Shown: piece after piece, positions 1,429 through 15,816 of the stretch
Numbering within the stretch: the stretch's first letter is position 1
Layout of the letters: each line of letters opens with the position of its first letter
Assembly: GCF_029223285.1 (NCBI RefSeq)
Contig: NZ_JARHUJ010000013.1
Location: 62,001 to 126,000, forward strand
DNA from: Paraflavitalea sp. CAU 1676
GTDB taxonomy: Bacteria; Bacteroidota; Bacteroidia; Chitinophagales; Chitinophagaceae
DNA length: 64,000 nucleotides
Reading direction: 5' to 3'
Translations under genes and position numbers: made by a program
Notes under the pieces: model-generated
The model's database searches: none
The model's input: only the letters and a program-made list of their open reading frames with translations
What the model was told of the DNA's origin: nothing

Positions 1429-1824
1429 ATGAACCCGAAAATCTGTTCTTTTAATAAGTACCAGGAGCGCTCATTTCTTGTTCGCCAGGTTACAGACAAT
1501 GAAAAGATAGAAATGGTACTTGATTATGTATTTGACAACTACCACCAGGGAGTATTGGTGGAAGATGCGGCCAGCATGTTGTGCATGACACCCCAAACAT
1601 TCAGGCGCTTTTTCAAAAGCTATACCAGTAGAACCTTTAAGCAGTTTGTGATAGAGGTTCGCATCAGGAGCGCCTGCCGTATGCTGTTGCAAGGCGAAAA
1701 GAATGTCTCGGAAGTTGCCTACGCCTGCGGCTATCGGACTGCTTCGCATTTTATCAGGCAGTTCAACGACATCATCGGCAAAACTCCTCTGCGCTACCAG
1801 AGAGAGGACCGTACTGAAGATTGA
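1429..1824 (+). CDS. Mini AraC-type regulator (DNA-binding domain only)
   Basis: The 131-residue product has the double helix-turn-helix of AraC regulators over about residues 28-125, including RRFFKSYTSRTFKQFV and the second-helix signature ACGYRTASHFIRQF. The usual N-terminal cupin sensor is absent. The first 20 residues contain SFLVR, which also occurs near the N-terminus of the full-length AraC protein at 29385-30296, and the two DNA-binding domains are alike. It therefore looks like an internally deleted relative of such a regulator. The start is two bases behind the MFS stop and a strong terminator follows the gene. With no sensor it may bind DNA constitutively or as a competitor; this is inference. 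Confidence 0.85.
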   Translation: MNPKICSFNKYQERSFLVRQVTDNEKIEMVLDYVFDNYHQGVLVEDAASMLCMTPQTFRRFFKSYTSRTFKQFVIEVRIRSACRMLLQGEKNVSEVAYACGYRTASHFIRQFNDIIGKTPLRYQREDRTED

Positions 1825-2116: not shown

Positions 2117-4333
2117 ATGAAAAGAAACCAGGTTACCATCCTCGACCTTGCCCGGCAGCTGGGGATTTCTAAATCAACTGTATCCAGGGCGCTCCAGGGT
2201 ATGAAGCAGATAAGTCCTGAAACCCGGAAATTGGTCACTGATCTCGCTCATGCAACCGGGTACCAACCCAACCTGATGGCGCTGGGGTTAAAGAATCAAC
2301 GCAGCAATATCATTGGCGTAATTGTACCTGATATTGAACTTCCGTTTTATGCCAGCTTAACGAGCAGTGTGCAGCAATATGCCTTACAGCATAACTATCA
2401 TACGGTGATCTGTCAATCCAAAGAATGCTTTTCGGTCGAGACAGATGTACTCCAGACCTTGTGGGGACTACAGGTTGCAGGCATATTGATGATCCATTCT
2501 AAGGAAACCAGGGACTTCGCCCATGTACAACAGGTCATCGGAAGAAAGATACCGGTCATCCTCGTCGATCGTTCTGTCACAGACTTCGATATACCCCAGG
2601 TAGAGAACGATCATTATGCCGGAGGATTTGCCATCGGACAACACCTGGCGCAGGTTGGTTGTAAAAATATCGCCATCATCGGTGGACCCAGGCACCTGAA
2701 ATTAAGCAACCTCCGCATCGAAGGCTGTGTGGCGGGTGCCGGTAGCGCCGGCGTACCTATTAAGGCTTCGTACATATACCAGGGTGATTTTAATCGTGAA
2801 AAAACACTTTCCATTCTGGATGAAATATTGAAGTCCGACACCCGGCCCGACGGCATTTTTTGTGTGCAGGATCGCGGTGCCTTTGAGGTCCTGAAGCAAC
2901 TTGAATTCCGGAACATCGCAGTACCCGATGAAATTGCCGTGGCAGGCTTTGGCAATGAAATGATGTCAAAATATGTAGTGCCCTCCCTGACTACTGTCGA
3001 ACAAAACCCAGCGAGGTTGGGTGAATTGGCGACAGCCACCCTCATCAGTCAAATAATGGATAACGTGACGGCGCCCATTCAGCAGCAACTCATCAGGCCG
3101 GAATTGATCGTAAGAGATTCCACCCGCCGTACCATTACCCGTCAAACAAAGGTTAACCACCTGAAGGCTGAACGGGTTGTGTGTACAGCGGCCACTGTTG
3201 TCGATAGTTTCAAGTCGTTGTATGGCGCCGCTCCTGCGTGTACCGTGCAGGCGCCGGCGGTAATCACCCTGGGTGGCGACTATACCGACTACCATGATGG
3301 CATTTTAGTTGGGGCTGGAATAGATCAGCAGGTCTATTGCTGTCTTTCCGAAAGCCCGGATTCCTTGTGCCATATACAGGCAGTTGAAACCAACGAACAC
3401 CTGTGCCTGCCATTGGATCAGTTAAGATTTTCTGCCGTTTCCTGGTCGCCTTTTATTCAATCGGTATTGAACGCTTTTCAACATGCTCAGATACCTATAC
3501 GACCCTTTCAGCTTGCTTTTGGAGGAAACATTGCTGCAGTAGCAGGTCCTCCCACCGCATCGCTTCAGGGAGGATTGCTGTATGGATTAAATGCCCTTTT
3601 CAACCTGGGCCTCACAAAATCAGCTCTTGTGAGGCTAGCACTGCAAGCGGAAAACGAACTGAGAGAAACGCCAACAGGGATTATCAATAAATATGCCTGT
3701 ATGCTGGGCAAAACAGGTGGATTCATGAAAGTGGATTGCCTGTCGATGGATTTTGAATACCTCGATTTTCCGTATGAAACTTATTCGTTGATCATGTGCG
3801 ACACAGGGGTGCATTATGGTTCGGCCCGTGCCGAAATGAATACCCGCATCAGCGAAACACAGGAAGTACTCGATTGTTTAAAGGGAAAATTCCCTGCCGT
3901 GCAGTCCTTCCGGGATATAACCCCCGGTATGCTGGTGGCAGCCAGGGGACGTATGCGACCCGATATATTCAGGCATGCCAACTATATCGTACGTGAAATA
4001 GCCAATGTTCAGGAGGCAGTTGGTGTATTAAGGCAGGGTCTGGTGATACCGTTTGGCGAAACGCTGTATGCTACACAAAAAGGACTGCAGGAAGATGATC
4101 GGTTCAGCTGTCCGGAGGTTAATTTCCTGATCGGTTTTGCCCGCAGGCAAAAAGAATGTATTGGTGCTAAAATGATCGGTGAAGGCTTTGGCAGTAGCAC
4201 TCTTCATATTGTGAACAGGAGCGGCTTGGCGAACTTTATGCGAAAACTGGAAACGGCCTATCTTAAAAAATATGGGGTGCGGCCAGGACTACAAGCGGTG
4301 AGTTTGTCAAAGGGAGTCTGTTTGATCTCCTAA
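2117..4333 (+). CDS. LacI-type regulator fused to a degenerate galactokinase (GHMP) domain
   Basis: This is one 738-residue open frame. Residues 3-55 form the LacI helix-turn-helix and hinge helix (TILDLARQLGISKSTVSRAL), and residues 60-335 are the periplasmic-binding-protein-like sensor of that family. After a linker, residues 375-735 align with galactokinase: APAVITLGGDYTDYHDG (380-396), AENELRETPTGIINK (511-525) and GAKMIGEGFG (683-692). The catalytic Arg of APGRVNLIGE is Val382 and the base Asp of GIMDQ is Asn524. The Ser-rich ATP loop GLSSSA is replaced by GPPTAS. It is therefore probably a sugar (or sugar plus nucleotide) sensor and not a kinase, comparable in principle to yeast Gal3. 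The gene converges on the SusC/SusD pair it likely regulates. Confidence 0.9.
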   Translation: MKRNQVTILDLARQLGISKSTVSRALQGMKQISPETRKLVTDLAHATGYQPNLMALGLKNQRSNIIGVIVPDIELPFYASLTSSVQQYALQHNYHTVICQSKECFSVETDVLQTLWGLQVAGILMIHSKETRDFAHVQQVIGRKIPVILVDRSVTDFDIPQVENDHYAGGFAIGQHLAQVGCKNIAIIGGPRHLKLSNLRIEGCVAGAGSAGVPIKASYIYQGDFNREKTLSILDEILKSDTRPDGIFCVQDRGAFEVLKQLEFRNIAVPDEIAVAGFGNEMMSKYVVPSLTTVEQNPARLGELATATLISQIMDNVTAPIQQQLIRPELIVRDSTRRTITRQTKVNHLKAERVVCTAATVVDSFKSLYGAAPACTVQAPAVITLGGDYTDYHDGILVGAGIDQQVYCCLSESPDSLCHIQAVETNEHLCLPLDQLRFSAVSWSPFIQSVLNAFQHAQIPIRPFQLAFGGNIAAVAGPPTASLQGGLLYGLNALFNLGLTKSALVRLALQAENELRETPTGIINKYACMLGKTGGFMKVDCLSMDFEYLDFPYETYSLIMCDTGVHYGSARAEMNTRISETQEVLDCLKGKFPAVQSFRDITPGMLVAARGRMRPDIFRHANYIVREIANVQEAVGVLRQGLVIPFGETLYATQKGLQEDDRFSCPEVNFLIGFARRQKECIGAKMIGEGFGSSTLHIVNRSGLANFMRKLETAYLKKYGVRPGLQAVSLSKGVCLIS

Positions 4334-4469: not shown

Positions 4470-6554
4470 TCAGTACCCTTTGTTCTGCACCAGGTTGGGA
4501 TTATTAACGATATCGGAATAGGGAATGGGTAAGTAATTCATGTTGTCGTTGATGTAACTGAAATCACTCTCTGGTCTGTTATACTGATTGGCCAGGTGGC
4601 TGATTATCGTGGCCGGCAGTATACCCCAACGCTTCAGATCATACCAGCGGTGATTTTCAAAGGCCAGCTCCCGTCTTCTTTCCTGCTTCACCAGGTTAAT
4701 AAGCTCTTCTTGCGAACCAAAGGTTAGATCGGAAAGTGCCGGCGTTGTACCTGTTCCCGTAGTGCCACCATGAGCCAGGCGGATGGCGTTAAGCTGTGCT
4801 AATGCGATATCCATATTCGCTGCGCCACCCATCTGGGCCAATGCTTCTGCATACATCAGGAGTACATCGGAATAACGTAGCCAGAAATAATCATCGGCAT
4901 TATCGTTGGCCAGCGAGTTAATGGGGTCATTGTATTTTACAATCCGTAAAGCACTATTCACTAAGGTGATCCTGCGCATGTCGGCCCACTCATATACACT
5001 CCTTGGGTTGGGTGTGTAGGTGAACACCTGACCAGGCTGAAAGCCATTGACGGAATAATAATACGTAGTAGAATTTTCCACCCAGTTAAATCCAGGAGCC
5101 GTACCGGCATTCCGTATCGAAGAGAAAAAAGCACTGGTTCTCACTGCAGTAGCGGTAGCGACTGCATTAACAGGTGGCGCCAGCTGATCGTACAACATTT
5201 CAAACTTTCCATCACCTTCATACAGCTTTACCTGGAAACTGATATTGTTTGACACCGTGGTTCCTGCTCTCCACCGCCAGTTCTTCCATTGCACCGTCAG
5301 CACCCGGTTAGGGGCTGCACCCGTAGTTGCATAAGATGCCTCACCACCAGCACCGTTTAAATTGTCGAGCAAGGGGCCGATCAGCGGGTCTTTGGAAGTG
5401 GTCATTCCTGTAGGGCTTACCGTCCTTGGTACAAAACTGATGAAGCCGTTACTGCACATATAGAACTTATCCACTTTCAAACCACCAAAATTAAACGTAA
5501 AGCCGATGGGCAATGCGCCGGAAATAGCTTCATCCACCTGAACGGATGGCACTGAGGTTCCACCTGCCAGGTTGGTATAAGCATTTGTTCCGGCAGTAAA
5601 AGAATACAGATTAAAATCATTAGAAACCAAGGCCATGGCAAGTGAGGTATATTTATTTTTCAACCAGGTATAGGCCAGTAAATTCGGAGGCATTCCCGAT
5701 GTACCCTTTGAGTAAAAGATCCTTTCCCGGTCAGCAGCCTTGTTCGCTGCAGAAGTATGGAAGATATTACTGTAGTTGGTATTGAGGCCAACCGAATATT
5801 GTAAATTGTTATCGATCAGTTCTTTCAATTTATCGGCCGCCAGTTGGTATTTGGAAACATCCTTCAGCGGAAACCCCGCCATGGTAAGATATACTTTGCC
5901 CAATAAGGCTTTTGCCGCCGCCCTGGTGGCCCGCCCGCCATTCTGGGAATCGTTATAGGCGTAATAGTCGTCAAGGTTAGCCTCAGCATATTGCAGGTCA
6001 TCGATGATCACCTGGTATACTTCGGTTTCTGTAGCCCGCGCAGGCGTCAGGTTGTTCTTCACCACATCAGCAGGCTCCAGCATCAACGGCACACCGCCAA
6101 ACAGCTGCACCAGGCGGAAGTAGTAGAATGCCCGCAGAAACCGGGCTTCTCCTGTTACCCGGCGAACCACCTCCCCTTTGATCTTCGTTGAATCATTTAC
6201 AAAGGCCACCACATTGTTGGCCCGCTCTATCGTGCGGTAAGCATTAGACCACGTATCCCTGATATCGGTATGCCTCGAATCGTAGGCAAGATATTCCATA
6301 TCCAGCCTGGCATCCAGGTTACTGGTTCCCACTGTACCATCGTCACTCATCCAGTCTTGTATAAACAGGGGGGCCATATTCGTTACATCAAATCGCATGG
6401 TTTGGTAAACCGCATTGACTGCTGCGATGGCATCCTGGTCTGTACGGTAAAAATTGGCGCGGTTGATCAGCGATTTGAACTCTTCCGTCAGAAACTTCTT
6501 ACAGGAAGTATGCAATAACATAATGTATAACAGTAAAAATGATAGCTTCTTCAT
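4470..6554 (-). CDS. SusD/RagB-type outer-membrane lipoprotein with an inserted beta-rich domain
   Basis: This is a surface glycan-binding lipoprotein that caps the SusC channel. A lipoprotein signal ends at Cys18 (LLHTSCKK). SusD-type TPR sequence covers about residues 20-310, and the SusD C-terminal region resumes near 517 (YEWADMRRITL, then DDYFWLRYSDVLLMYAEA and ERRRELAFENHRWYDLKRW). The region in between, about residues 312-516, is foreign to SusD and explains the length of 694 against the usual 450-600. It reads as a beta-sandwich (LPIGFTFNFGGLKVDKFYM, CSNGFISFVP), of a type seen in secreted Bacteroidota proteins. It probably adds a second binding surface; that is inference. It follows the SusC gene by 21 bases. 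Confidence 0.9.
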   Translation of the reverse strand: MKKLSFLLLYIMLLHTSCKKFLTEEFKSLINRANFYRTDQDAIAAVNAVYQTMRFDVTNMAPLFIQDWMSDDGTVGTSNLDARLDMEYLAYDSRHTDIRDTWSNAYRTIERANNVVAFVNDSTKIKGEVVRRVTGEARFLRAFYYFRLVQLFGGVPLMLEPADVVKNNLTPARATETEVYQVIIDDLQYAEANLDDYYAYNDSQNGGRATRAAAKALLGKVYLTMAGFPLKDVSKYQLAADKLKELIDNNLQYSVGLNTNYSNIFHTSAANKAADRERIFYSKGTSGMPPNLLAYTWLKNKYTSLAMALVSNDFNLYSFTAGTNAYTNLAGGTSVPSVQVDEAISGALPIGFTFNFGGLKVDKFYMCSNGFISFVPRTVSPTGMTTSKDPLIGPLLDNLNGAGGEASYATTGAAPNRVLTVQWKNWRWRAGTTVSNNISFQVKLYEGDGKFEMLYDQLAPPVNAVATATAVRTSAFFSSIRNAGTAPGFNWVENSTTYYYSVNGFQPGQVFTYTPNPRSVYEWADMRRITLVNSALRIVKYNDPINSLANDNADDYFWLRYSDVLLMYAEALAQMGGAANMDIALAQLNAIRLAHGGTTGTGTTPALSDLTFGSQEELINLVKQERRRELAFENHRWYDLKRWGILPATIISHLANQYNRPESDFSYINDNMNYLPIPYSDIVNNPNLVQNKGY

Positions 6555-6575: not shown

Positions 6576-9500
6576 TTAAAAATTCACGTTCAGGCCGAAT
6601 CGGTAAACACGCCCCAGTGGGCTAGTTCCACCGTCTACACCACGCGCTAAACCGCCTGAGGTGTTCACTTCAGGGTTATATCCGGGATAAGAAGTAAGGA
6701 TAAACAGGTTCTGGCAGTTCGCATAGAACTTTACACCCGCTACTTTGATGCGCTTCATCCACGAAGCAGGCAACGCCCAGGAAAGCGTAATGTCCCGGCA
6801 ACGCAGGTAGGTGCCGTCTTCGAGGTAAAGGTCAGTGGATTCACGGGGATCATACAGCGATCCAGGTACCTGGATGTTGGCGCGCTCGTTGTGCAGCCTG
6901 ATCTTGTCCGCTTCTTCTGCACTCATAGTTGGCGTGATCATTCTGTAGCGACGATCGAAAATATCCTTGCGTATATTGGCCTGTCCACGATTTAAAGACA
7001 TCGTATTGAACTCATAATAATCAAATATCTTGTTGCCTACCGAATAACTGAAGAACGTTGCCAGTTCTAAACCCTTATAGGAAATCGTGGAACTGAAACC
7101 ACCAAAATATTTTGGCAAGGCACTGCCAAGGTAGGTCCGGTCTTTATCGTCCAGCAATCCATCATTGTTAAGGTCAGCATAACGGCGGTCGCCTTCTCTG
7201 GCGCCAGTCTGAAACCCAGCCGGTTTTTCCAGGATCGTTTTGTCCGTCCACACTCCGATGGTTTTTAACCCATAAAACTGCCCGATTGACACCCCAGGCT
7301 GCAACCGGAATAAATAAGCACCCGTTACTACCTGGCTGATATCCTGGTATTCTCCTTTTCCTCCAGACAACTGGTCTACCCGGTTCCTGTTGATGCCGAT
7401 ATTGGCCTCTAAGTTCCAACGTACCTTTTTGCTGTTAACGACTTTCCAGCCAGCACTGAATTCAATACCCTCGTTGGTAAGCGAAGCAATATTTCGGGTG
7501 AGGAAGGTATATCCACTACTCAACGGAGGGATGGTTCCATACAACAAGTCATTGGTCCTTTTCCGGTACACTTCGGCAGTCAATGAAAAACGGTCTTTAA
7601 AAAAGCTGAGGTCTGCGCCGAGATTCACAGAAGCCGTTCGCTCCCAGCGTAAGGTGGGATTGGAAAGATTGGTAGGAGTAAATCCAACATTCACCGTATT
7701 GCCAAAAACAACACTGGCCACATCCAGGGTGCTGATGGTAGAGTATGGAGCTATCGACTGGTTACCTACGATACCCCAGCTGGCCCTCAATTTCAGATCA
7801 CTGAAGATCGACCTGAGCGGTGAAAACCATTTCTCCTGGTTCAGGCGCCAGGCAGCACTCACGGCCGGAAAGAATCCATAGCGTTCATTTTCTGTAAACT
7901 TGGAAGTACCGTCCATACGACCGGAAGCACTGAGATAATACCTGGACTTGTAGTTATAAGAAGCACTAACGATGGAAGAAACCAACTGATTGGCATTATA
8001 CGTTGTATAGGGTGTGTTGGAGGCGGATCCCGATTGGAGCGAATGATAGGTGGCTACATCAGAAGTGAACCCGATGGTGGAAGCAGTTTGTGTCTTAGAA
8101 ACAAACTTCTCGGCCGAAGCCACCACAAAAGCAGACAATATATGGTCTTTGCCGAAGCGCCGGTTGTAATTGGCCTGCAACTGATAGAGCAACCCGGTAT
8201 TTTGCGAATTGCCGGCGCTGGCAGCTCCCTTCAGCGCGGAGCCGCCGATATAGATGCTGGGCGTATAATTTTCGAGCAGCGCATTAAAAGTGGTAAGCCC
8301 CAGCTTGGCACTTACGTTAAGGTGGTTATTGATTGACCAGGCAAGACCAATATTGGTTAGTAATTGGGTGGAGGTTTGTACGTTCTTCACCTGGTTTGAA
8401 CCGCCAAATTCAAATGGATGATTGGTGTAAGCCAGGCTTCTTGCTTCGTTGGCTGCAAACCGGGGATTATAATAAACAGTAATACCCCGCGTAGCATCAT
8501 ACGTTGTAGCTTGTCCATTTCCATATTGATACAGCGCCAGGTAATTCAATCCCCCATCCGGATTGACAAGCGGAACCGAAGAGGGCCAGCCTAACACTTT
8601 ATTGGAAAGTATGGTAGTAGGTTGACCATTGCGTACCGAGTTGGTATAATTGGTGCTCATGGTAAAAGTGAGGTCCGGGCGCAATTTTCCTTCATAGCTT
8701 AGCTTGCCATTATAACGGTTCAAGGAAGTGCTGGGTATCATGCCCACCTGGTTATAGTACTGGCCCGAAAAGAAAACTTTGTTTTTTGCATCACCACCCG
8801 AAACGCTCATGTAAATGTCTGTGGTAGGCGCCGTTTGCTGAATATCTTTCTGATGATCGTATGTTGGCAGGGAATCTATTTCCTCGGGGAGGTAAGGTTG
8901 AATAGCCGTGGTATTATAGCCAATGGCTTTCCGGTAGGCCCAGTACTCATTCATAAAGGTGGCATAGTCGCGACCATTCAATACCTTGATGCTCCTGGTA
9001 GACCTGGTCATTGAATAATTCGCATTCAGCGACACGTTGATCTTCCCCGCTTTGCCCGATTTAGTGGTGATCAACACCACACCGTTCGCCCCCCGTGCGC
9101 CGTAAATGGCGGTAGCAGCGGCGTCTTTCAGTATTTCGATGGTTTCGATGTCATTGGGATTGATCATCGTTAACGGATTGGACGTACTAGGGGAAACCAG
9201 GCTACTTGCACCGGTAGTGAGGTTCAGATCAGGACTATTCAGCGGAATGCCGTCCACCACGTACAACGGCTGGGATGAAAAGCTGATGGAACCGATGCCT
9301 CTTATCTCCACACTAACACCGCCGCCCGGATCGGTCGAGTTTTCCAGCACCTGCACACCGGCAGCGCGCCCCCCGATCAACTGTTGAAAGGAGGAATATC
9401 CCCCTTCGGTATTATTCTTCGTATCCACTTTTGTAACCGAAGTGGTCAGGTCCCTTTTCTTCTTGCTTTCATAGCCAATGATGACCACGTCGTCCAGATC

Positions 9501-9803
9501 CGAAATAACCGGTTGCAGGTAGATGGTAGTTGGCATGGAGCCAGCCTTGTATTCGAGGATCTTGTAACCTGAAAAGGAGATCACGATGACATCCGACGGT
9601 TTCGCTTCGTAAACAAATACCCCTTTGCTATTGGTGGCAGTACCACGTTTGGATCCTTTAATCGTTACAGAAGCTCCTTCGGCCAGTTCGCCGGAAGGCA
9701 ATTTTACAGTAGCTGTAACGGTTACATTTTGTGCGGATAGCCAATACGGCAATACTAGCAGGCAGGCAATAACGCTTAATGTTTTGAGAAAAACATTACT
9801 CAT
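6576..9803 (-). CDS. SusC/RagA-type TonB-linked outer-membrane transporter
   Basis: This 1075-residue outer-membrane importer takes up oligosaccharides with energy from TonB. After a signal peptide (ending near LPYWLSAQ) come a carboxypeptidase-regulatory-like domain (about residues 28-105), the plug with EIRGIGSISFSSQPLYVVDG and ATAIYGARGANGVVLITTK, and a long beta-barrel that ends in an aromatic residue (YRFGLNVNF). It is the first gene of a two-gene operon with SusD. It is transcribed away from the acetylesterase operon, and the palindrome at 9976-9989 lies between the two promoters. Confidence 0.95.
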   Translation of the reverse strand: MSNVFLKTLSVIACLLVLPYWLSAQNVTVTATVKLPSGELAEGASVTIKGSKRGTATNSKGVFVYEAKPSDVIVISFSGYKILEYKAGSMPTTIYLQPVISDLDDVVIIGYESKKKRDLTTSVTKVDTKNNTEGGYSSFQQLIGGRAAGVQVLENSTDPGGGVSVEIRGIGSISFSSQPLYVVDGIPLNSPDLNLTTGASSLVSPSTSNPLTMINPNDIETIEILKDAAATAIYGARGANGVVLITTKSGKAGKINVSLNANYSMTRSTRSIKVLNGRDYATFMNEYWAYRKAIGYNTTAIQPYLPEEIDSLPTYDHQKDIQQTAPTTDIYMSVSGGDAKNKVFFSGQYYNQVGMIPSTSLNRYNGKLSYEGKLRPDLTFTMSTNYTNSVRNGQPTTILSNKVLGWPSSVPLVNPDGGLNYLALYQYGNGQATTYDATRGITVYYNPRFAANEARSLAYTNHPFEFGGSNQVKNVQTSTQLLTNIGLAWSINNHLNVSAKLGLTTFNALLENYTPSIYIGGSALKGAASAGNSQNTGLLYQLQANYNRRFGKDHILSAFVVASAEKFVSKTQTASTIGFTSDVATYHSLQSGSASNTPYTTYNANQLVSSIVSASYNYKSRYYLSASGRMDGTSKFTENERYGFFPAVSAAWRLNQEKWFSPLRSIFSDLKLRASWGIVGNQSIAPYSTISTLDVASVVFGNTVNVGFTPTNLSNPTLRWERTASVNLGADLSFFKDRFSLTAEVYRKRTNDLLYGTIPPLSSGYTFLTRNIASLTNEGIEFSAGWKVVNSKKVRWNLEANIGINRNRVDQLSGGKGEYQDISQVVTGAYLFRLQPGVSIGQFYGLKTIGVWTDKTILEKPAGFQTGAREGDRRYADLNNDGLLDDKDRTYLGSALPKYFGGFSSTISYKGLELATFFSYSVGNKIFDYYEFNTMSLNRGQANIRKDIFDRRYRMITPTMSAEEADKIRLHNERANIQVPGSLYDPRESTDLYLEDGTYLRCRDITLSWALPASWMKRIKVAGVKFYANCQNLFILTSYPGYNPEVNTSGGLARGVDGGTSPLGRVYRFGLNVNF

Positions 9804-9975
9804 GGCAATCGTTTTTGGGTTTTTATAATCAGTTATTCATCGGTCTGGCAGATTGGAAGTTTCGTTCTTTCCAGTAGGTCGGGCTTGATTAAATAGTCGG
9901 CTATTGAATACACTGCAGCGATTTCAAAATTAGTATTTCGACTTGTTGATACAAGGAAGTTGGAGCATTTCCTCA

Positions 9976-9989
9976 CGGGAACGTTCCCG
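9976..9989. promoter_or_regulatory. Candidate LacI-family operator between SusC and the esterase operon
   Basis: CGGGAACGTTCCCG is a perfect 14-bp palindrome with a central CG, the usual form of LacI/GalR operators. It sits in the 276-bp divergent gap, about 90 bases before the esterase start and about 170 before SusC. Partial copies occur at 2002-2010 and 18546-18553, upstream of other genes in the same locus. Assignment to the LacI fusion protein is inferred. Confidence 0.6.
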
Positions 9990-10079: not shown

Positions 10080-11492
10080 ATGACTTCGATCAGATTGTTG
10101 CTATTTCTCTTGCTGTTATGTACAAATCATTTATACGCGAAAATCACCTTGCCATCCGTGATCAGTGATGGCATGGTGTTGCAGCAAAGAGCAGATGTGG
10201 CGCTTTGGGGAAAGGCCAACAACAATGCCCGGATTATCATTACCACATCATGGAATGACAAAACATACACGACGAAAGCCACTGCTTCCGGCGACTGGAG
10301 ACTATTGGTAAAAACAGTAGGAGCCGGAGGTCCTTTTACGATCAGCTTAAGTGATGGAGAAAAAATAACACTTAAAAATATTTTGCTGGGGGAAGTTTGG
10401 CTCTGTTCGGGACAATCGAACATGGACATGCCGGTAAAAGGATTTACCAACCAACCCATTCTTTATGCCGGCGAACTGATGATGGATGCAGACAATGATC
10501 AGGTACGCCTTTTCCGTATGGAGGTAACTGGTAGCCGGGTGCCGAATTTTGATGGCGCCGCCACACCCTGGTTGGCTGCCAATGGAGAAACGATCAAAGA
10601 TTTTAGTGCCGTAGGGTATCAGTATGCAAAATTACTACAGCAACGATTAAAGGTACCCGTGGGCATTATTCAAGCAGCAGTGGGTGGTACCAAGATCGAG
10701 TTTTGGATGTCGGCCAGCAGCTTAAGTCCGTTCAGTGATGTGAAGATCAAATCTCCCGATGATCCTTCCAAGGTATCCGGCTGGGAGCCTACTGCCCTGT
10801 TTAATGCGATGATCAATCCCATCGCTGGTTATCATATCAAAGGCGCCATTTGGTACCAGGGCGAATCTAACAGCCGCACTTACCAAAACTACGAGCAGTT
10901 GATGCAAACCATGGTCAGCGACTGGAGAAAGCGGTGGAATTGCGGTGAATGGCCCTTTTACTTTGTGCAGATCGCCCCACACTTTTATAGGGATTCGACC
11001 AACAAAGCCGCCTTTTTACGGGAAAAGCAACAAAAAGCCATGAACAGTATTGCCAACGCCGGCATGGTAGTCACCATGGATGTTGGTGAAGAGTTACGTA
11101 TTCACCCAAGCAACAAAACGACCATCAGCAACCGGCTCGTCGCCTGGGCATTGGGCAACACCTATGGATACAAAGGCATTCCCTTTGCAAGCCCTACCTA
11201 TCAATCATCCAAGATCGTCAAGAGTGCCATCGAAATTACTTTCAACAATACGTCGATGGGATTAATGGCTTCCCACCCTCCATTATCCGCCTTCGAGATT
11301 GCAGGAGACGACAGGAAGTTTTACCCGGCAGATGCAATCATAACCAAAACCGGCGTCACGGTAAGAAGTGCCCAGGTAAAAGATCCGGTTGCCGTTCGGT
11401 ATGCATTTAAAGACTGGGTAGTAGGTGACCTCTTTAGCCTGGAAGGGTTACCGGTAGCGCCGTTCCGTACCGACGATTGGCCAACGCCCTGA
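10080..11492 (+). CDS. Secreted sialate O-acetylesterase-family carbohydrate esterase
   Basis: The 470-residue protein has a signal peptide (to about residue 20) and an SGNH-type esterase fold that removes acetyl groups from sugars. Block I is CSGQSNMD, with the family's catalytic Ser at 113. GAIWYQGESN follows near residue 258, and the Asp/His pair lies in MDVGEELRIHPSNK. Family members act on acetylated sialic acid or on plant polysaccharides. Beside a GH95-like enzyme and a GDSL esterase, this one probably clears acetyl groups so that exo-glycosidases can proceed. It is the first gene of a three-gene operon divergent from SusC. Confidence 0.9.
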   Translation: MTSIRLLLFLLLLCTNHLYAKITLPSVISDGMVLQQRADVALWGKANNNARIIITTSWNDKTYTTKATASGDWRLLVKTVGAGGPFTISLSDGEKITLKNILLGEVWLCSGQSNMDMPVKGFTNQPILYAGELMMDADNDQVRLFRMEVTGSRVPNFDGAATPWLAANGETIKDFSAVGYQYAKLLQQRLKVPVGIIQAAVGGTKIEFWMSASSLSPFSDVKIKSPDDPSKVSGWEPTALFNAMINPIAGYHIKGAIWYQGESNSRTYQNYEQLMQTMVSDWRKRWNCGEWPFYFVQIAPHFYRDSTNKAAFLREKQQKAMNSIANAGMVVTMDVGEELRIHPSNKTTISNRLVAWALGNTYGYKGIPFASPTYQSSKIVKSAIEITFNNTSMGLMASHPPLSAFEIAGDDRKFYPADAIITKTGVTVRSAQVKDPVAVRYAFKDWVVGDLFSLEGLPVAPFRTDDWPTP

Positions 11493-11573: not shown

Positions 11574-14500
11574 ATGAAAAGAAAAGACTTTCTGCAGCAG
11601 CTCGGTGTAGTATCACTGGGTAAGCTGGTTATCCCCAATTCTGTACTGGCCAACATTTCCGGGGCCGCTATGGGCAGACCTTCGCTAGACGGCTTAAAGC
11701 TATTCAATGTAAACCATTCCGCTTTGCTGGCCCGGGCTGCTATCAGTTATGGCAAACCTCCGTCTTCAGAGAATGAGGGGATACCCATCGGCAATGGAAA
11801 CATGGGAACACTGGTGTGGACCAAGCCGGCAAAGGCTGCTACTGCCACCAATGCCGCTGAACCCGCCGATCCCGCAAAGATCATGTACCAGATCAACCGC
11901 AATGATACTTTCGGCCAGGACCGCACGCACCAGCATTACGATGATACCGTTCTTCCCGGAGATAAACAGGAAGTTACCGACAATACCCTATCCCTGTGCC
12001 GCCTTGGCATCCATGTTGGAGCGGCTACTTTTCAATCCCTCCGCCAAAACACCGAAGAAGGGACTGTTACCTTGAATTACCAGGCCAGTACCGGCACCGT
12101 AGACTTTATCACTTTTGTTTCAGCCGAACACGATATGCTGATCGCCAGAATAGGTGACAGAAGAACGACCCCGGAGGAGATCAATTTTGAGGTGAGTATG
12201 GTCCGGCAGCCACAAGAAGTACATGGCCAAAGTGTGTGGGACTACACGATCACCGAATTCTATGGCCGCACCATTATTGTGCAAACTGTTAAGGAGGGTT
12301 CCTTTTACATGCAGTATGCGGTGGCCATCAGTGTGCGCGGGACCCCCGTTGAGATCGTGGAAAAATCGGCAGACCGGGTAAAGTTCAAGACCAAGCCATT
12401 TGCCGGGGGATTTGGTTTCTTCCTGGCCACTGCCACCACCTTGTATGAGCAGGTGGATGTTCGTAAAAAGGCGCTTGCCGTTTTAGCCATTGGCGAAGGT
12501 CAGGGCACTGACACCCTGTTGAAACAACACCGTGCCTGGTGGCGTAACTTTTGGGTAAAGAGCCGCACTTTTGTACACCTTAGCAGCGATGATGGTGTGG
12601 CCGATTTCCTGGAAGCCCGTTATAACCTGCATCTCTACCATATGGGCAGTACTTCCCGGGGAAATTTTCCACCGCTCTATAACTACGGGCTGTGGTTGGC
12701 TACACCAGATGGCAAGCGCTACTGGGGTGCACAGTACAAATTCATGAACGATATGATGATGTACCTGTCGCTCTACGCTGCCAATTACATGGAGTTAACC
12801 GATTCCTACCTGAACATGTACCGGAAAATGTTGCCCGACTGCGAAACCGCGGCCAAACAACGTTGGGGTGTTACAAAAGGTGCCTTTGTTCCTGAGTCGC
12901 TTGGATTCAGCGGTCCCACGATCCTTTCCTCCCAGGCAGCTCCGATGATCCATGATGTGTTGATGGGCAGGCGGACGCGGGCTTCACTACCGCCCGCCGT
13001 GGTCAAAGAGTGCCTTGTCGAAGCAACACTGGATTGGATCAATCCCAAGTTCGGTGCCCGGTATGATCAATTCACCTGGGTAGCCCATATTCTTTCGTCA
13101 GGATCACAGCTGGCCATGCAATTTTATTGGCGCTACCAACTGACCGGAGATATCAATTGGCTGCGTGACTCCGCCTATCCCATGATGAAAGGCATGGTTG
13201 ATTTTTATCAGAGTTATGCACAAAAAGGAACGGACGGATATTACCATATTATCCGGAGCAATGTGCACGAATCTTATTGGGGGGTGAACGATGGAATCGT
13301 TGATCTGGCGGCCATCAGGTCGCTCACCCCGAAAGTCATTGCGTGCTCTCAAATTTTGGGCGTGGATGCGGGTCTTCGGGCAGGTTGGACGGAGTTTCTT
13401 GAAAAGCTTGCCCCCTACCCTGCCGGTGATCATGCTGACGTGGTACGCCTGCAAAGTGGTACTCCTCCGGCAGGTGAATACGGCGGGGAGAAAATTCCCT
13501 TGTTTCCGGCAGGCACTTTCGGAGCCGGCTATGCAGTAAGGTGTGTGGGGCGGTCAAATGTTGATCCGGTTTGGGTGTGGCCTGTACACCCCTTCGAAGC
13601 TATTTCGTTGGTGAAGGGGCGTTATACCGGAAGCCAGGAGGATAAAGACAACTTTCAGAAAATGCTGCTTACCTATAAGTATGTTCCACCTACCTGGTAT
13701 GGATATATGTGGCCCCAGTATCCCGGCCGGCTTGGTCTCACCGATGAAGTGCGCAAGATATTACCGCTGTATGCCACCGGCGCGGGAGTAAGTGGCCTGC
13801 AGAACACCTGGGGACAGGCTAATAATGGTTTGCTGCCAGAGGCTATTCAAAGCGCCCTGATGCAAAGTATTGACGAGATCATCCTGGTGGCGCCGGCCTG
13901 GCCTTCGGAGTGGCGGGCGAGCTTTACCCTGCTGGCGCGCGGTGGTTTCCTGGTATCTGCCACCCTGGAACAAGGCGCACCCAAGGTGATACAGGTGGAA
14001 AGCACCTTTGGTACAAATTGCCGTATCGTGAACCCCTGGCATCCTGCTGCCGCTTACCTGAGACGTGCAGGGCAGACACAACAAACGTTGAACGGGCAGA
14101 TCCTTGAGTTTCCACTGGTGACCGGTGAAAGTGTTTTGCTGGTCGGAAATGCAGAAATGACCCTGCAGCTTCCCATCATAATAAATCCCGCACCCGGTGC
14201 TGTAGTGAAGAAGATCCAGGCGACACACCCCAACGGGACAGTAAAAAAGACGCAGTTGGGAAAAGAAGGCCCTGTTTCAACCAGAGTGGCGGTTAAGCAG
14301 GAAACTGCCACCCAAACCCTTGCACAGGGATTGCGGATCGCTGTAAACCCTAATCCCGTACGGAATACACTTAATCTGGAGATCTATCAGGATACTACAT
14401 CCCAGATCAACATACGCATCCTGGATATGACGGGAAGACAGGTATGGCAGCGCAAGGAGCAGATTACCGGTGGTGAAGCAAGACTCATGCCGGTGAACTT

Positions 14501-14585
14501 CAGCGCATTTTCCGCCGGTACTTATTGCGTACAGGCTAATAATGGAAAGCAATCTCAAAGTATAAAGTTCCAAAAGACAGAATAA
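11574..14585 (+). CDS. GH95-like (alpha/alpha)6 glycoside hydrolase with T9SS sorting domain
   Basis: This is a large exported enzyme of 1003 residues. The N-terminus (KRKDFLQQLGVVSLGKLVIP) resembles a Tat signal with KR in place of RR. A beta-rich region with GIPIGNGNMGTLVW (about 63-76) is followed by an alpha-barrel from about residue 330 (NYGLWLATPDGKRYWGAQYK, then SAYPMMKGMVDFYQSYA). This arrangement matches GH95 alpha-L-fucosidases/galactosidases and their uncharacterised relatives; the exact family is uncertain. The C-terminal 85 residues are a T9SS type A sorting domain (NPNPVRNTLNLEIY and FSAGTYCVQ). It lies 81 bases behind the acetylesterase gene. It is most likely cell-surface or secreted and cuts terminal deoxy-sugar or galactosyl residues. 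Confidence 0.8.
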   Translation: MKRKDFLQQLGVVSLGKLVIPNSVLANISGAAMGRPSLDGLKLFNVNHSALLARAAISYGKPPSSENEGIPIGNGNMGTLVWTKPAKAATATNAAEPADPAKIMYQINRNDTFGQDRTHQHYDDTVLPGDKQEVTDNTLSLCRLGIHVGAATFQSLRQNTEEGTVTLNYQASTGTVDFITFVSAEHDMLIARIGDRRTTPEEINFEVSMVRQPQEVHGQSVWDYTITEFYGRTIIVQTVKEGSFYMQYAVAISVRGTPVEIVEKSADRVKFKTKPFAGGFGFFLATATTLYEQVDVRKKALAVLAIGEGQGTDTLLKQHRAWWRNFWVKSRTFVHLSSDDGVADFLEARYNLHLYHMGSTSRGNFPPLYNYGLWLATPDGKRYWGAQYKFMNDMMMYLSLYAANYMELTDSYLNMYRKMLPDCETAAKQRWGVTKGAFVPESLGFSGPTILSSQAAPMIHDVLMGRRTRASLPPAVVKECLVEATLDWINPKFGARYDQFTWVAHILSSGSQLAMQFYWRYQLTGDINWLRDSAYPMMKGMVDFYQSYAQKGTDGYYHIIRSNVHESYWGVNDGIVDLAAIRSLTPKVIACSQILGVDAGLRAGWTEFLEKLAPYPAGDHADVVRLQSGTPPAGEYGGEKIPLFPAGTFGAGYAVRCVGRSNVDPVWVWPVHPFEAISLVKGRYTGSQEDKDNFQKMLLTYKYVPPTWYGYMWPQYPGRLGLTDEVRKILPLYATGAGVSGLQNTWGQANNGLLPEAIQSALMQSIDEIILVAPAWPSEWRASFTLLARGGFLVSATLEQGAPKVIQVESTFGTNCRIVNPWHPAAAYLRRAGQTQQTLNGQILEFPLVTGESVLLVGNAEMTLQLPIIINPAPGAVVKKIQATHPNGTVKKTQLGKEGPVSTRVAVKQETATQTLAQGLRIAVNPNPVRNTLNLEIYQDTTSQINIRILDMTGRQVWQRKEQITGGEARLMPVNFSAFSAGTYCVQANNGKQSQSIKFQKTE

Positions 14586-14664
14586 TTGACTGGTGCCCGG
14601 CATTGTTTTCGCCAATGCAGGGCTCTTGCGCAATCAAAAAATACATATCAAAAGAATCAACCTA

Positions 14665-15816
14665 ATGAACAATTACTTTCGAGCTCAACGATCCCTAATT
14701 CATTTGCTGTGTAGCTGCCTGTTGATAGCTGCATTCACGCTTTCCTCAATGGACGGCCTATCTCAGTCGTCCGGGACGTACCAATTGTGGGAGCCGCTGG
14801 CAGATTCCCTTTCAAAGATCGGTGGCCGATTGCCTGAAGCAAGATCGCGCCATGACTATGGCCGCCTTCCTGAGAGGGCAGCTACGCTGGTCAGAAAAGG
14901 TTTATGGAACCTGAGTCTTAACAGTGCTGGTACTTATGTCGAATTTCAGACTGATGCGGCTGAAATCATGGTGCGCTACAATCTCGCCGGTTCCAACTTA
15001 TTTGAGCGTAAAACCTTTCCCGGTAATGCGGGAATTGACCTTTATGCCAAGGACAGATCAGGAAAATGGCATTGGGCAACAGGCACCTGCCGTTTTGGTG
15101 ATACGGTTGAATACTGGTTCAGGAACATTGACAAGCGCATCGACCTGACCCATTTCAGGCTTTATTTTCCATTACACAATGCCCCAAAGTGGTTGCAGAT
15201 TGGCGTGAAGGCCGGAAATACACTCACGCCGGTTCAGCCATCCATCGATAAGCCCATTGTATGTTATGGTACCTCTATCTTGCAGGGAGGAAGTGCTACC
15301 AGGGCAGGCCTCGCGTGGGGAAATATATTGGGGCGTATGCTTGACAGGCACATTATTAATCTGGGCTTCTCAGGTAATGGAATGCTGGAGACCCCGCTCA
15401 TAGATTTGGTGAATATGGTGGATGCATCTGCCTATGTGCTTGATTGCTTACCCAATCTGACCGACTCCGGAAGGGTTCCCGACACAGCACTGCGCCGCCT
15501 GATTGTAAATGCAGTGAAAACACTAAGAGCGACTCATCACCATACACCTATCGTATTGGTAGAGCATGCATCCGGCTACCCGGGTTTTTGCCTCGATGAC
15601 CGGCAAAACATACGGTACACAAGGGTCAATAAAATTATGCATGCCACCTACAGGGAAATGGTCAAAGAAATGCGCATTAAAGGGTTGTACCTGCTCTCAG
15701 CGGCACAGATAGGCCTCACGGCGGAAGGATCATTAGATGGTACTCACCCCAACGATCTTGGTATGTATAAGTATGCAACGGCTTACAGCAAGCTACTCTC
15801 CTCCATTCTTCAATGA
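14665..15816 (+). CDS. Secreted SGNH/GDSL hydrolase (GxDLY-type)
   Basis: From the ATG at 14665 the product has 383 residues and opens with a signal peptide (LLCSCLLIAAFTLSS). An upstream in-frame ATG would bury this signal, so it was not chosen. The N-terminal jelly-roll part includes GIDLYAKDRSGKWHW, the GxDLY signature. The C-terminal SGNH part has CYGTSILQGG (Ser near residue 204), INLGFSGNGM and DGTHPNDLGM with the catalytic Asp/His. It is probably a second carbohydrate esterase of different specificity. It is the last gene of the esterase/GH95 operon and is followed by a bidirectional terminator. Confidence 0.88.
   Translation: MNNYFRAQRSLIHLLCSCLLIAAFTLSSMDGLSQSSGTYQLWEPLADSLSKIGGRLPEARSRHDYGRLPERAATLVRKGLWNLSLNSAGTYVEFQTDAAEIMVRYNLAGSNLFERKTFPGNAGIDLYAKDRSGKWHWATGTCRFGDTVEYWFRNIDKRIDLTHFRLYFPLHNAPKWLQIGVKAGNTLTPVQPSIDKPIVCYGTSILQGGSATRAGLAWGNILGRMLDRHIINLGFSGNGMLETPLIDLVNMVDASAYVLDCLPNLTDSGRVPDTALRRLIVNAVKTLRATHHHTPIVLVEHASGYPGFCLDDRQNIRYTRVNKIMHATYREMVKEMRIKGLYLLSAAQIGLTAEGSLDGTHPNDLGMYKYATAYSKLLSSILQ

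Follow-up and report, generated by a model that had tools for sequence, protein, structure and literature searches.

A LacI-type regulator fused to a probably inactive galactokinase-like domain beside polysaccharide genes of Paraflavitalea sp. CAU 1676

Here we describe a gene of Paraflavitalea sp. CAU 1676 in which one uninterrupted reading frame joins a LacI regulator to a galactokinase-like domain whose catalytic residues have been replaced. It lies in the window, by which we mean the whole stretch of 64,000 nucleotides that was analysed. We propose, with a probability of roughly 0.45, that its product is a LacI factor of the adjacent polysaccharide genes in which a catalytically dead, C-terminal galactokinase acts as a second, non-catalytic regulatory module. 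The first part of this proposal, a LacI-type regulator of the flanking genes, is by itself likely from the sequence and its surroundings.

The gene and its domains are laid out as follows.

2117-4333 (+): fused gene, LacI regulator plus galactokinase-like domain; open frame of 738 codons plus stop, with Pfam matches
2135-2272 (+): LacI helix-turn-helix, residues 7-52; Pfam LacI PF00356, 41.7 bits against a cut-off of 27; predicted helices 8-15, 19-26 and 34-47
2273-2293 (+): hinge helix, residues 53-59; predicted helix 53-59 and alignment with other LacIs
2300-3124 (+): periplasmic-binding-protein-like sensor core, about residues 62-336; Pfam Peripla_BP_3, predicted fold, PDB relatives CcpA, PurR and RbsR
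3134-3175 (+): linker, residues 340-353; pLDDT below 50 in the full-length model
3188-4330 (+): galactokinase-like GHMP domain, about residues 358-738; Pfam, NCBIfam and PDB matches, predicted fold

Translation of 2117-4333 (+) gave zero internal stops and Pfam matched both sets of domains, which bears out the initial annotation in reading the frame as one LacI-galactokinase-like protein; a frameshift splitting it into two genes, the result named there as telling against a fusion, was not found. In the LacI half, Peripla_BP_3 (PF13377) covers residues 175-336 at 110.9 bits (cut-off 26.5). In the kinase half, GalKase_gal_bdg (PF10509, residues 364-411, 33.7 bits) and GHMP_kinases_N (PF00288, residues 481-532, 26.8 bits) score over their cut-offs, and GHMP_kinases_C (PF08544, residues 647-712, 19.9 bits) falls slightly under its cut-off of 21. 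Structure prediction, suggested at the outset as a check, folded the LacI half and the kinase half alike. Because the full-length model has a pTM of just 0.56, the relative placing of the domains cannot be read from it. With recognition helix, hinge and sensor core all present in sequence and model, the LacI half is predicted to be complete. A search of the organism's own 8.84-Mb genome returned no second copy of the fused gene.

The likeness of the second half to galactokinases is not a matter of chance, since sequence and predicted-fold comparisons both return it. The NCBIfam galactokinase model PRK03817 matches the fused protein at 179.7 bits (E 7.9e-53, below the model's cut-off of 443), galactokinases of the PDB match at E about 5e-30, and a model of the kinase half by itself (mean pLDDT 89.6, pTM 0.89) was used as a Foldseek query for which all 50 matches listed are galactokinases, with 2dei, 6gr2 and 1s4e at the top. 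As a protein family, the domain thus classed by its predicted GHMP fold and Pfam domains is a galactokinase. Its domain scores of 33.7, 26.8 and 19.9 bits compare with 70-87, 72-90 and 32-46 bits for five intact GalKs on PF10509, PF00288 and PF08544, respectively. To place individual residues we used an alignment with 36 galactokinases, picked by similarity rather than randomly (38 were found, and two second copies of the same genes were dropped). The fused protein retains 35 of the 73 columns that are at least 95% conserved in this alignment, which also gave the following replacements.

3260-3262 (+): Val382, replacing the Arg of APGRVNLIGEHTDY (Arg in 36 of 36)
3533-3562 (+): degenerate phosphate-binding loop AAVAGPPTAS, from residue 473, replacing PxGAGLSSSAA
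3686-3688 (+): Asn524, replacing the catalytic Asp of GIMDQ (Asp in 36 of 36)

The changes at Val382, Asn524 and GPPTAS (477-482) had been read from the sequence in the initial annotation and proved correct, as Arg, Asp and Ser-Ser-Ser are each found in 36/36 galactokinases. The G-PPTAS loop, with its two prolines, is one residue shorter than GLSSSAA; its residues 475-478 have pLDDT below 50 in the full-length model, and the loop is disordered in both models. The accompanying view that the substrate-side and third motifs are kept stands only in part, with Asp391 and GFG among what is retained: the first motif GEHTDYN has become GDYTDYH (Glu to Asp388, His to Tyr389, Asn to His393), and the third, ARMMGGGFGGC, reads AKMIGEGFGSS. 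A Tyr common to all 36 galactokinases is Met574 here; the survivors in the kinase half include Asp391, Glu512, Gly521, Asn575 and Arg577. We take the galactose contacts of human GALK1 to be Arg37, Glu43, His44, Asp46, Gly183, Asp186 and Tyr236. In the PDB alignment numbering these presumed contacts correspond to Val382, Asp388, Tyr389, Asp391, Gly521, Asn524 and Met574, so that two of the seven are kept (Asp391, Gly521) and five changed. Given these five changes and a phosphate loop shortened with prolines, binding of galactose or ATP by the kinase half cannot be assumed. As read from the alignment, the domain has neither the active-site Arg and Asp of galactokinases nor their GLSSSAA loop, and it is very probably catalytically dead. 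Since the genome carries a separate, ordinary galK with intact motifs (C1:271104-272240), the sole other galactokinase match at the threshold used, the fused domain would be freed from its old task.

We searched for relatives of the full protein in several overlapping samples, of which the genus, phylum, family and class tallies take in the window's own genome. None of the four other genomes of the genus matched at E 1e-100. Matches were found in 7 of 395 genomes of the phylum sample (1e-68), 8 of 394 of the family sample (1e-72), 2 of 395 of the class sample (1e-80), 1 of 12 in the genus of L051 (1e-65) and 4 of 200 in the family of G668 (1e-76). Querying with the kinase half alone gave matches in 113 of 294 family genomes at 1e-50; among the matches listed, every place except the window's is an open frame 359 to 442 codons long. 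Eight matches outside the window extend over both halves (L039, L040 and L045-L050), and all eight are a lacI gene followed by a separate galK gene, with order, strand and frame as in the fusion, a single stop between the two (two stops in L049) and intact kinase motifs; galT comes after galK in L049 and L050. The search for pairs is biased, as a spanning match is visible only with both genes in one frame; L032 is an overlapping lacI-galK pair in different frames. No second LacI-galactokinase fusion was seen in any of these samples, and the sampled Bacteroidota genomes yielded no fused homologue with intact kinase motifs, which was the other finding named from the start as counting against a dead kinase. 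Two low-sensitivity scans of genome contigs, with back-translated peptides and a degenerate first-motif pattern, extended the search to other phyla and gave no fusion relatives, and none of the 16 plasmid records with a match covers 80% of the query. Searches of open-licence PMC papers returned none that, judged by title and the opening of the abstract, describes a fusion of a LacI protein with a galactokinase, GHMP or sugar-kinase domain, which is not proof of absence from print.

Because lacI-galK pairs recur, fusion of neighbouring genes is a natural route to such a protein. In the LacI tree the LacI half groups with the kinase-free LacIs L041-L044 and L051 (support 100/99), and the LacIs of pairs fall in another clade (7 of 9) or elsewhere (L039 and L040). 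This placement argues against stop-codon loss in one of the pairs found, among which no parent of the fusion was identified; another pair, whose LacI belongs to the clade of the LacI half, may be the parent. The kinase half has no supported neighbour in the kinase tree. Its best match, L068 (35-36% identity), was considered as a free-standing relative and rejected as an ordinary galK beside galT with intact motifs.

The genes downstream of the fused gene are its probable targets; a hairpin lies ahead of it.

4470-6554 (-): susD; Pfam SusD_RagB; probable target
6576-9803 (-): susC; Pfam TonB plug; probable target
10080-11492 (+): acetylesterase gene; Pfam; probable target
11574-14585 (+): gene for a GH95 protein with a Por secretion tail; Pfam; probable target
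14593-15816 (+): GDSL esterase gene; Pfam; probable target
1866-1900 (no strand): 16-pair hairpin with a T-rich stretch, between the AraC-type gene and the fused gene

The upstream neighbours are susC, susD, a gene for an 813-residue protein, a GH29 fucosidase gene, an MFS transporter gene and an AraC-type gene, with a GH2 enzyme further off. The enzyme families point to a polysaccharide substrate containing sugars of the fucose and galactose types. That L-fucose and L-galactose might be ligands is a guess prompted by the GH29 and GH95 genes nearby. The 813-residue protein, encoded upstream of the window between susD and the GH29 gene (L052:14424-16865 (+)), has no Pfam match. The AraC-type protein (131 residues, 1429-1824 (+)), directly after the MFS gene, consists of the DNA-binding part with no sensor domain. 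The SusD of the window (694 residues) matches Pfam at 64-223 and 534-694 only, and the approximately 310 residues between may hold an inserted domain. A synteny search found no close match to the GH95 protein in 58 relatives at E 1e-150. Homologues of the MFS gene are many, and none of the nine loci read has an adjoining LacI or kinase-half match.

To look for a target site we scanned the intergenic stretches for CG-centred palindromes.

9976-9989 (no strand): candidate operator, perfect palindrome CGGGAACGTTCCCG, between susC (-) and the esterase gene (+)
1997-2010 (no strand): weak candidate operator CGCTGACGTTCCCG, 3 mismatches, 106 bases upstream of the fused gene
9932-9955 (-): candidate susC promoter CTTG-N19-TAATTTTG; the whole window has 39 sites this good on both strands

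The perfect palindrome is flanked by the ATG of susC at 9803 (-) and that of the esterase gene at 10080 (+). It is the sole perfect copy of CGGGAACGTTCCCG in the 8.84-Mb genome, a uniqueness that is no test since the site was chosen as a palindrome, and sites with up to 2 mismatches are not enriched (23, against 30 for the reversed control). Independent support for the operator comes from its recurrence upstream of related lacI genes. Within the 400 bases before the helix-turn-helix codons, a near copy occurs in five of six LacIs of the same clade (2 mismatches in L041, L043, L044 and L051 and 3 in L002; the sixth, L042, has 4), as it does in all three further relatives fetched later (2 mismatches in L069 and L070, 3 in L071), giving a similar palindrome upstream of 8 of 9 related kinase-free lacI genes in total. 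Among less related LacIs the count is 2 of 11 (L045 and L005), with the start of L006 poorly placed. Random 400-base stretches contained a site with up to 2 mismatches in 1 of 2000 trials and with up to 3 in 21 of 2000. The palindrome between susC and the esterase gene is thus a likely target of the regulator, as judged from these sequence comparisons. We called the susC promoter with what we take to be the Bacteroidota promoter consensus; the palindrome sits upstream of this candidate rather than on it, so repression by simple blocking is not obvious.

Several further features of these regulators and their sites were observed. Upstream of L041, L043, L044, L069, L070 and L071 the palindromes come in pairs with starts 12 bases apart, the second often weaker, an arrangement that suggests side-by-side binding. 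Elsewhere in the window's genome two TGGGAACATTCCC-type palindromes lie 19 bases apart (G000:C22:388697-388729), and TGGGAACATTCCCA and AGGGAATGTTCCCA upstream of L002 are likewise 19 bases apart; the former pair is perhaps the target of a paralogous LacI such as L002. All seven LacI relatives inspected (L041, at 2706-1465 (-), L042, L043, L044, L069, L070 and L071) begin with Cys-x2-Cys ... Cys-x2-Cys, in a conserved stretch of about 35 residues ahead of the LacI helix-turn-helix that has no counterpart in the fused protein. This stretch resembles what we take to be a zinc ribbon, which would make these relatives an unusual kind of LacI with two DNA-binding domains.

These data allow us to outline how the fused protein could work. 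The regulator would bind GGGAACGTTCCC-type palindromes and so target the susC/esterase intergenic region, perhaps together with its own promoter; of the steps proposed this one is fairly firm. The dead kinase domain might bind a sugar or metabolite other than galactose plus ATP, and its closing or opening might then alter the DNA-binding state of the LacI dimer, with either repression or activation as the outcome. That the dead domain is a second sensor is our leading reading, held tentatively, and a domain merely carried along is nearly as good an account. More doubtful is the specific form with two independent inputs, the LacI sensor reading one sugar and the reshaped dead galactokinase a second sugar or derivative from the same polysaccharide. 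If true, the polysaccharide genes would respond to a combination of two sugars, and the protein would match, within one bacterial chain, the galactose switch of yeast.

We found the kinase half to be under coding constraint, with its frame kept open. When point mutation without selection was simulated from each of two intact galK genes down to 31% identity, on average 11.3 and 12.9 stops accumulated, and none of the 300 runs from either gene was free of stops. Codon usage scored 0.701 in the kinase half and 0.703 in the LacI half, against 0.645 and 0.628 when the kinase half is read in its two other frames. A requirement to fold and nothing more would leave the same signal of constraint as function. 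The fused kinase could accordingly have lost its function and be kept foldable and soluble by selection against aggregation, in what is otherwise an ordinary LacI with one ligand; we consider this quite possible. It accounts together for the open frame, the intact fold and the lost active-site residues, and it suits a fusion that is a singleton in the sampled genomes and whose kinase half is the longest branch of the kinase tree (4.3 to 5.0 changes per column, where the median branch has 0.41 to 0.43). The LacI half, too, sits on a long branch (1.79), so that the whole protein evolves fast. Conserved columns are retained at 18 of 46 positions in active-site motifs and 17 of 27 elsewhere (Fisher p 0.057, with a motif grouping of our own), so that the lean of losses towards the active-site motifs is suggestive only. 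A fold kept without its pocket is equally expected of a domain carried along, and conservation of a pocket is not demonstrable because there is no second fused copy. Against this explanation, it is costly to maintain a complete fold of 380 residues that has diverged so far yet carries neither a stop nor a gross deletion, the easy truncation by one stop after codon 340 is not seen, and Asp391, Gly521, Glu512, Asn575 and Arg577 survive.

An unlikely alternative to a second sensor is that the dead kinase fold serves oligomerisation or partner binding with no small ligand. Parallels are the binding of HPr(Ser-P) by CcpA and of Gal80 by Gal3. Among solved structures, CcpA (1rzr) is the best match to the LacI half, and regulatory relatives of galactokinase work by protein contact, as described in PMC7556753; in the fused protein's case, however, no partner gene is apparent and no fusion homologue exists to reveal a conserved surface. 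Continued phosphorylation of some sugar by an altered mechanism, which would make the protein both regulator and kinase, is very unlikely. GHMP kinases differ in substrate, and this variety, together with the retained fold and conserved Glu512, is what speaks for it. It has to contend with the replacement of the active-site Arg by Val and Asp by Asn in combination with a lost Ser-rich loop, with the disorder of that loop in both models and with the normal galK elsewhere in the genome. Least credible is an artefact of assembly or sequencing by which two genes became joined, for instance through an overlooked stop where a lacI gene adjoins a galK-like gene: same-frame neighbours with little beyond a stop between them are common enough (8 pairs) and the fusion is in one genome only, but the lost active-site residues are scattered over the domain and would not be the product of one error, the LacI half is unlike the LacIs of those pairs, and the contig is 156 kb long in a genome 99.97% complete and 0.51% contaminated.

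Compared with known systems, the fused protein resembles the LacI family (CcpA, PurR, RbsR) in its complete helix-turn-helix, hinge helix and sensor core and in its palindromic, CG-centred candidate operator, and differs in a second domain of about 380 residues past the usual protein end. It shares sequence family and whole fold with GalK of the GHMP superfamily, whereas the catalytic Arg and Asp, the Ser-rich loop and most of the presumed sugar-contact positions are replaced and the domain is joined to a DNA-binding protein. The lacI-galK pairs of Bacteroidota have the same gene order, strand and frame, but encode separate proteins, the kinases with their motifs intact and the LacIs belonging to other clades.

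ROK repressors (Mlc, NagC, RokB) have a different kinase fold. Like the fused protein, they use a sugar-kinase relative in a regulator (PMC4856308). Unlike it, they have no LacI sensor, where the fused protein carries two sensor-type domains in one chain; its Pfam matches include no ROK domain, and Foldseek assigns the kinase half a GHMP fold. In yeast, Gal3 is a paralogue of Gal1 that has lost enzymatic function, and Gal1 acts as a sensor when galactose and ATP bind to it; Gal3 and Kluyveromyces lactis Gal1 are thus comparable as galactokinase relatives, without enzyme activity in the case of Gal3, that are linked to transcription control (PMC7556753). Gal3 acts via the separate inhibitor Gal80, in contrast to a domain fused to a DNA-binding protein, and Gal3 sequences are weakly similar to the kinase half (E about 1e-4), with the galactose and ATP positions degraded in the fused protein. 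The suggestion that it is a bacterial counterpart of Gal3 therefore survives as regards a galactokinase relative in a regulator with its catalytic residues lost, and weakens as regards ligands, with 5 of 7 presumed galactose contacts and the ATP loop changed. Enzymes turned regulators are already known in yeast Gal3 and the ROK repressors; a GHMP kinase incorporated into a DNA-binding protein of bacteria would add a third, separate route to this outcome, in a single chain.
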